From an uncultured Spirochaetia bacterium (GTDB taxonomy: Bacteria; Spirochaetota; Brachyspiria; Brachyspirales; Brachyspiraceae), in the NCBI GenBank assembly GCA_947040945.1, contig CAMRCO010000012.1, positions 1 through 32,822 on the forward strand: a stretch of 32,822 nucleotides of DNA. Direction: 5' to 3'. Under the pieces are notes generated by a model, which saw only the letters and a program-made list of their open reading frames with translations, did no database searches and had not been told where the DNA came from. Positions 22,617-23,924 of this stretch are shown piece by piece (position 1 is the stretch's first letter; every line of letters begins with the position of its first letter). The translations under genes were made by a program, and so were the position numbers.

Positions 22617-23924
22617 TTATTCAAATACTGTTTGCTCAGACACTTCAGTTTGTAAAGCGACCAAAGCTCTCTCTACCAGTTTTCGTCTTAACTTCTTACT
22701 AACATCTTCTCCAAGTGGAGGATTTCCAATAGGATAAGGAATACCAACACCGGGTATAATTCTGTTAGCACCTATAGTTAAAGATATTGGAACAACTGTT
22801 GCCATATGAACAACAGGAATTCCCGCACGCTCAATTTCTTTTACCATCGTTGCACCGCAACGAGTACAAGTGCCTCAGGTAGATGTTAGAATTACAGCAT
22901 CTACTCCATCAGCTATAAGTTTTGGAACAAAGTCCTCACCAAACTGTTTGGCATTATTAGTTGATGTACCAGTACCTGTAGTGCTAACAAAATAATTTGC
23001 AAGCTCTCCAATTCCACCTTCAGCCTCAATTTCTCTCATTACATCAAGTGGAATAACAAGATTTGGATTTTTTAAAACGAATGCTCTGTCATATCCTCCA
23101 TGAACTGTCATAAAGTCTTTTGCATCCATTTCTTTCATGCCATCAATTTTGTATGTCCCATACTTAGTTGCACTTGAACTTTCAATCTTATCAGGGTTAC
23201 CAGTAGGTACAATTCCACCACTTGTTACAAATGCTATTCTCGCTTTTTTAATATCTTTTATTGCTTTAGCAGGCTCTACTCTATCAAAAGAAGGCATAGG
23301 ATATTCTGTTACTACAGCTTCACCTTTAATCTTTCTTACAAGTAAGTCTACAGCACGAACAGAACCTCTCACTTCATTAAAGTAATTTACTCTTATTCCA
23401 CGCTCAAAATAGCCTTCTTCTGCTGGAGAAAGAACCTCTTCTCCATTAGCCATTTTTTTTGCTAATGATGCTATTTTTGGCATAGAGTTTTTCATGTCAG
23501 CCGCTGAGTTTTTAGTTTCTATGATGCATACATCCTTACGATACATGTCGACGCCAGGATTCTCGCTATACATTCCACTAACAACAGGTATAGAAAGTTT
23601 TTCTTGAACTGCCTTACATATAGCTCCACAAGCAACCCCATAACGACCAGCCTCAAATGCAGGGCCTGCTACAAATAGGTCAGGCTTGTAAGGAGCAATC
23701 ATCTTAAGAATATCACTCTCTGCCTTAGCAAGGTTTTCAGCATAATAATTGTCTCCACAAATAACTGTCGCAACAACTTCATACTCATCACCTAAAGCAT
23801 CACTTAAAGCCTTTCCTGGACCAATAAGCCCCTCTTTTATTTCAGGCTCCATTCCTGCTTTTTCCTCCCCACCAACACCTGCAAAAAACTGATTTAAATA
23901 ATGTATAATACGTTTTTTAGCCAT
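22617..23924 (-). CDS. grdB: Glycine/sarcosine/betaine reductase protein B, selenoprotein subunit (GrdB/F/H-like)
   Basis: One 435-residue selenoprotein interrupted by an in-frame TGA at 22875-22877, read as selenocysteine 350, the same number as in the Eubacterium acidaminophilum GrdB. The frame continues without a break as 'TST-U-GTCTRCGATMVKEIE' to 'TEVSEQTVFE' at a TGA at 22617. The gamma (about 47 kDa) subunit carries the Sec, which activates the amine substrate bound to the pyruvoyl group of GrdE and passes a carboxymethyl group to selenoprotein A. Cysteines C353 and C356 flank the Sec in U-x-x-C-x-x-C. It is followed by an AGAT-like gene. Whether the substrate is glycine (GrdB), sarcosine (GrdF) or betaine (GrdH) cannot be decided by eye. 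A stop-based gene caller would split or truncate it. Confidence 0.95.
22848..22877 (-). promoter_or_regulatory. Selenocysteine UGA codon and bacterial SECIS hairpin
   Basis: Directly after the UGA (22875-22877) come 12 unpaired bases, then a perfect 6-bp stem CGUUGC/GCAACG with a GGU apical loop (22848-22862). The loop G residues and the distance of about 18-21 bases from the UGA match the bacterial SECIS requirements for SelB. It implies selA, selB, selC and selD elsewhere in the genome. Confidence 0.85.

Follow-up and report, generated by a model that had tools for sequence, protein, structure and literature searches.

The selenium-dependent reductases closest to the system treated here have been described in two settings. 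In the Brachyspira family, the 2010 genome paper on B. pilosicoli describes a glycine reductase cluster (PMC2897892); in Tissierella creatinophila, creatine is converted via sarcosine to acetate and methylamine in a selenium-dependent manner, and creatinine amidohydrolases and an N-carbamoylsarcosine route are listed for the organism, but no creatinase (PMC5364220). In the searchable literature we found only glycine reductase for the Brachyspira family and no report of a sarcosine reductase made up of GrdF and GrdG. Here we analyse a grdF gene at positions 22617..23924 (minus strand) of a 32,822-nucleotide stretch of DNA, hereafter the window, from an uncultured Spirochaetia bacterium of the Brachyspiraceae (GenBank assembly GCA_947040945.1, contig CAMRCO010000012.1). 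Judging from its sequence, and with a probability of about 0.9, grdF encodes the beta subunit of protein B, the substrate-binding component of sarcosine reductase, and this subunit contains selenocysteine. The genome of the window belongs to the same family as a group of genomes that includes Brachyspira alvinipulli, but to another genus. The selenoprotein family, the selenocysteine and its RNA signal are all already known, and the finding is ordinary for the family; the less ordinary part is the set of gene neighbours, which may allow feeding on creatine by an undescribed route.

Predicted selenocysteine at codon 350 of grdF

The minus-strand frame from 23924 to 22617 translates as 435 codons and a stop, with a single internal TGA (22875..22877, codon 350). 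An earlier account made from the letters alone—the sequence-only reading—had described this TGA as breaking one continuous frame, and the translation agrees. Read as selenocysteine, the codon opens the motif UGTCTRC (residues 350-356), a UxxCxxC arrangement. All 111 homologous sites compared, which come from spirochaetes, Bacillota and Fusobacteriota, have TGA at this codon; the search query carried Cys at the selenocysteine site and the peptide patterns skipped that site, so Cys forms could have been found.

The base after the TGA begins a bacterial selenocysteine insertion sequence (SECIS) element (22837..22874, minus strand), which matches Rfam SECIS_4 (RF01990) at 65.9 bits against a gathering threshold of 38, covers 38 of 38 model positions, and is the sole Rfam match at gathering threshold within the window. 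Its hairpin, CGUUGC-GGU-GCAACG at 22862-22848, is exactly the one given in the sequence-only reading, with a loop that begins 18 nt past the UGA; RNA folding lengthens the stem to 7 bp and adds a lower stem. Because the stem is almost invariant, covariation would be uninformative, and we used synonymous constraint in its place. Across 109 non-identical coding sequences, codons 352-359 have a normalised synonymous entropy of 0.31, compared with a mean of 0.80 at other conserved codons, and they form the lowest-entropy run of eight conserved codons in grdF (Mann-Whitney p = 7e-7). Over the hairpin, Cys356 is TGC and Ala358 is GCA in 109/109 sequences, and Arg355 is CGT in 108/109; in contrast, Cys353 is TGT in 100/109. 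This frozen codon choice can be explained by an RNA signal and not by protein conservation. The comparative data—conservation of the TGA and synonymous constraint—are the strongest evidence for the SECIS. A scan for promoters and terminators returned matches at chance level and was uninformative.

The sequence-only reading had named absence of selC or selB as grounds for its refutation, but all four sel genes are found in the genome of the window (130 contigs, about 99% complete): selA on contig C120, selD on C24, selC on C59 as a tRNA-Sec with anticodon TCA (ARAGORN), and selB in two pieces that run to the ends of C120 and C126, each below the full-length cut-off. In the proposed mechanism, SelB carrying Sec-tRNA(Sec) would bind the hairpin just 3' of UGA350 and insert selenocysteine, yielding the 435-residue protein with its UxxCxxC motif.

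It is very improbable that the TGA instead ends translation, or is a mutation that has inactivated grdF, so as to leave a truncated or dead gene. Standard-code calling of open reading frames (ORFs) does end grdF at 349 aa, as such a stop would have it; however, the fixed TGA, the conserved codons downstream, the SECIS_4 match, the synonymous constraint and the full complement of sel genes all speak for readthrough, and we rejected the pseudogene that the sequence-only reading had also dismissed. Its further expectation that annotation would truncate or split the gene holds for naive ORF calling, whereas current RefSeq entries run through the selenocysteine codon in two examples, P. acidaminophilum (Peptoclostridium / Eubacterium) grdF and Enterococcus gilvus grdH. 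The adjacent duplicate grdA and grdB ORFs that the 2010 B. pilosicoli paper lists in B. murdochii (PMC2897892) look like genes split at TGA. In the Brachyspira-family lineage, ORF callers need to continue past TGA.

Subunit identity and substrate

The window protein was first taken for a GrdB-like subunit. At the level of the family this is right—the Pfam GRDB profile matches at 547 bits (cut-off 22)—but within the family the protein is best called a sarcosine-type GrdF rather than a glycine-type GrdB. It scores 801.2 bits against the NCBIfam sarcosine_GrdF model, whose cut-off is 800, while two paralogues in the same genome fall under the cut-off (697 for the glycine-type paralogue and 538 for the one on C32). 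Glycine-type homologues from Clostridia score 696-756, and homologues of other phyla in the clade of the window protein score 807-860. In the tree, which does not include the P. acidaminophilum sequence, the window protein and six Brachyspiraceae orthologues (78-80% identity) belong to a 16-member clade with 99% SH-aLRT support, and the genome's own glycine-type GrdB lies outside this clade. Brachyspira alvinipulli ATCC 51933 is among the related species that carry the gene. In the plasmid records searched, the nearest annotated relative is P. acidaminophilum grdF, at 70.1% identity. On the upstream side, after a gap of 17 nt, grdF is adjoined by grdG (23942..25228, minus strand), whose product is a predicted proprotein of 428 aa and the alpha subunit of component B of sarcosine reductase; it matches NCBIfam sarcosine_GrdG at 847.1 bits (cut-off 780) as well as Pfam Gly_reductase. 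The glycine-type and betaine-type paralogues of the genome remain under the cut-offs of the two sarcosine models. We rejected GrdB of glycine reductase for the window protein on score, on the tree and on the separate glycine operon at C61, and betaine-type GrdH on a score of 562 against a cut-off of 775.

GrdF and GrdG would bind sarcosine and release methylamine, the selenium-bound carboxymethyl group would pass to GrdA, and GrdC and GrdD would then yield acetyl phosphate and ATP. Genes for GrdA, GrdC and GrdD lie elsewhere in the genome, away from grdF. We infer the substrate, the chemistry and the actual incorporation of selenocysteine from what is known of the family.

The protein might also be a selenoprotein B that acts on a substrate other than sarcosine, such as glycine or another N-substituted glycine. 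We regard this as improbable: GrdG is well over its own cut-off, the protein groups apart from a glycine-type GrdB that sits in a full glycine operon of its own, and the nearest annotated relative is itself a grdF. Several points nevertheless count against our assignment and should be weighed with it. The GrdF score is marginal, barely over the cut-off, and a same-genus orthologue (L107) lies slightly below at 794.7, the one exception among the sampled clade members; the assignment of sarcosine is in this respect less certain than that of selenocysteine. Also, the folding energy of the SECIS is by itself unexceptional (z = -1.0 to -1.4) and not decisive, and the integrity of selB is deduced from two pieces split by contig ends. 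On balance, TGA350 is almost certainly read as selenocysteine—the insertion is as certain as a sequence can make it—and a sarcosine-type GrdF extends the selenoproteome of Brachyspiraceae to sarcosine reductase.

The same genome encodes two more full-length GrdB-family paralogues with a TGA and SECIS_4: the glycine-type GrdB on C61, in an operon that reads grdX-trxB-grdE-grdA-grdB-grdC-grdD and in which grdA has one TGA, and a betaine-type-like protein on C32. The C32 locus (2141-12058) holds a putative betaine-type reductase whose acyl-CoA-related surroundings are unusual: a GrdH-like selenoprotein and a GrdE-like partner occur with a BCCT transporter, CoA-transferase, thiolase, acyl-CoA synthetase and alpha/beta hydrolase. 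On C107 there is a proline reductase-like locus, with a PrdA-like protein, a PrdB-like frame with one TGA, and a proline racemase. Several Stickland reductases thus seem to be encoded in this small genome.

The gene neighbourhood and a possible route from creatine

Eight genes lie on one strand (minus) around grdF. In order of transcription these are ornithine carbamoyltransferase (OTC; 26948..27988, NCBIfam TIGR00658 at 411 bits, cut-off 281), grdX (26469..26861, NCBIfam GrdX at 143.2 bits, cut-off 40), a permease-like membrane protein of 366 aa (25294..26394, no Pfam or NCBIfam match), grdG, grdF, a 378-aa homologue of arginine:glycine amidinotransferase (AGAT; 21424..22560, phmmer to 1jdw/1jdx with E about 1e-81), a sodium:solute symporter (SSF; 19780..21216, Pfam SSF) and arginine deiminase arcA (18483..19709, NCBIfam arcA at 531.8 bits, cut-off 489). 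The gaps from OTC to arcA are 86, 74, 65, 17, 56, 207 and 70 nt. The permease-like gene occurs together with grdF of the sarcosine type in spirochaetes, in Bacillota and in one Fusobacteriota genome, and was not found in glycine-type loci; its product is a candidate sarcosine permease, and the symporter is a predicted importer of a guanidino substrate. Carbamate kinase (arcC) is encoded on C81 of the same genome. No description of this company of AGAT, SSF and arginine deiminase genes around grdF was found in the searchable literature. Elsewhere in the window, at 439-7549, there is an apparent glutamate fermentation cluster, in which AtuA and DUF4387 were recognised by Pfam, and mutS, mutL, mutE (glutamate mutase), methylaspartate ammonia-lyase and glutamate racemase were named by sequence reading.

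Related genomes arrange these genes in similar ways. An arcA-SSF-AGAT-arcC-OTC block is present in two relatives (L152 and L154), with phosphotransacetylase after it in both, and in a third (L151) the block is merged with grdF-grdG-permease and grdX. SSF adjoins AGAT in Brachyspiraceae, and in a same-genus genome (L155) the pair is next to selA-selB. In Photobacterium sp. DA100, AGAT and SSF are near each other with one regulator gene between them, and the replicon of this gammaproteobacterium that carries them also has a grd cluster in which the SECIS motif recurs. The cluster resembles that of glycine reductase and contains two grdA-like copies.

The joining of a conserved AGAT-SSF-arginine deiminase block to sarcosine reductase hints at a possible fermentation of creatine or guanidinoacetate. 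As a tentative proposal, which we hold to be less likely than not and which extends and does not contradict the assignment of GrdF, the operon would ferment creatine through the AGAT-family amidinotransferase instead of creatinase. The symporter would import creatine, and the AGAT homologue would convert creatine and ornithine to sarcosine and arginine; arginine would then pass through the deiminase, OTC and carbamate kinase, giving one ATP and regenerating ornithine, while sarcosine would be reduced by the selenium-dependent GrdFG to acetyl phosphate, giving another ATP. In relatives with glycine reductase only, a variant might convert guanidinoacetate to glycine.

What favours a creatine route is the compact one-strand run (gaps of 17-207 nt), the recurrence of the block in relatives and its union with grdF-grdG in one of them, the location of arcC in the same genome, and the proximity of AGAT to SSF in Photobacterium, whose replicon also carries a grd cluster. 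A true creatinase follows grdG-grdF in P. acidaminophilum, and in Brachyspiraceae we found no creatinase above the level of prolidase, with best matches that are partial, 28-31% identical and prolidase-like. The AGAT homologue keeps the catalytic Asp, His and Cys in a residue check against the human enzyme; however, in all eleven family homologues human N300 is replaced by Y and M302 by I, at positions that we take to shape the substrate site. AGAT is also enriched with selenoprotein B—it occurs in 6/7 grdF-positive vs 5/18 grdF-negative family genomes (p = 0.02), and in 10/15 genomes with any selenoprotein B vs 1/10 without (p = 0.01)—though neither count is corrected for shared ancestry. Against the proposal, we found no biochemical precedent for creatine as amidino donor, several Brachyspira carry AGAT alone, and guanidinoacetate, as a source of glycine, would fit nearly equally well. 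In a search for AGAT in Clostridia, it was absent from 391 genomes of one class, and it was likewise absent from 13 non-Brachyspira genomes with grdB or grdF, a set that lacks a positive control.

The five AGAT-positive Brachyspira without grdF also lend something to a plainer account, in which the amidinotransferase runs the textbook way, from arginine and glycine to guanidinoacetate and ornithine, and its nearness to grdF is incidental clustering of amino-acid genes. Overall homology to AGAT and the retained catalytic residues agree with that direction, but the nearby symporter and the catabolic arginine deiminase pathway suggest a degradative role, and we consider the plainer account unlikely. 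If the operon does serve creatine fermentation, it would show by which enzyme some anaerobes that lack creatinase can use creatine, and would tie this use to selenium and to a gut compound derived from host and diet.

Comparison with known systems

The SECIS of the window shows no notable difference from Rfam RF01990. The glycine reductase operon with GrdB known from B. pilosicoli and Clostridium sticklandii (PMC2897892), like its counterpart on C61, shares the selenoprotein B family and the SECIS with the window locus; in contrast to that locus, it is a separate operon with grdA, trxB, grdC and grdD, and is of the glycine type by score and tree. The amidinotransferase route proposed for the window operon does not appear in the paper on T. 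creatinophila (PMC5364220). Compared with human AGAT (PDB 1jdw), the window homologue retains Asp254, His303, Cys407 and Arg322; it differs in having Tyr in place of Asn300 and Ile in place of Met302, both close to the substrate, and in its operon setting.

The closest likeness is to P. acidaminophilum, where grdG and grdF are likewise adjacent, the full-length gene runs through the selenocysteine codon, and GrdF is 70.1% identical. The neighbours differ: in P. acidaminophilum, a BCCT transporter gene and a gene for a creatinase that matches 1CHM at 569 bits follow grdG-grdF, and in the window the neighbours are AGAT, SSF, arcA and OTC. The same creatinase (72%) is also encoded close to a grdB homologue at another Clostridial locus (L039). 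With its creatinase, the P. acidaminophilum grdG-grdF locus would run from creatine through sarcosine to acetyl phosphate.
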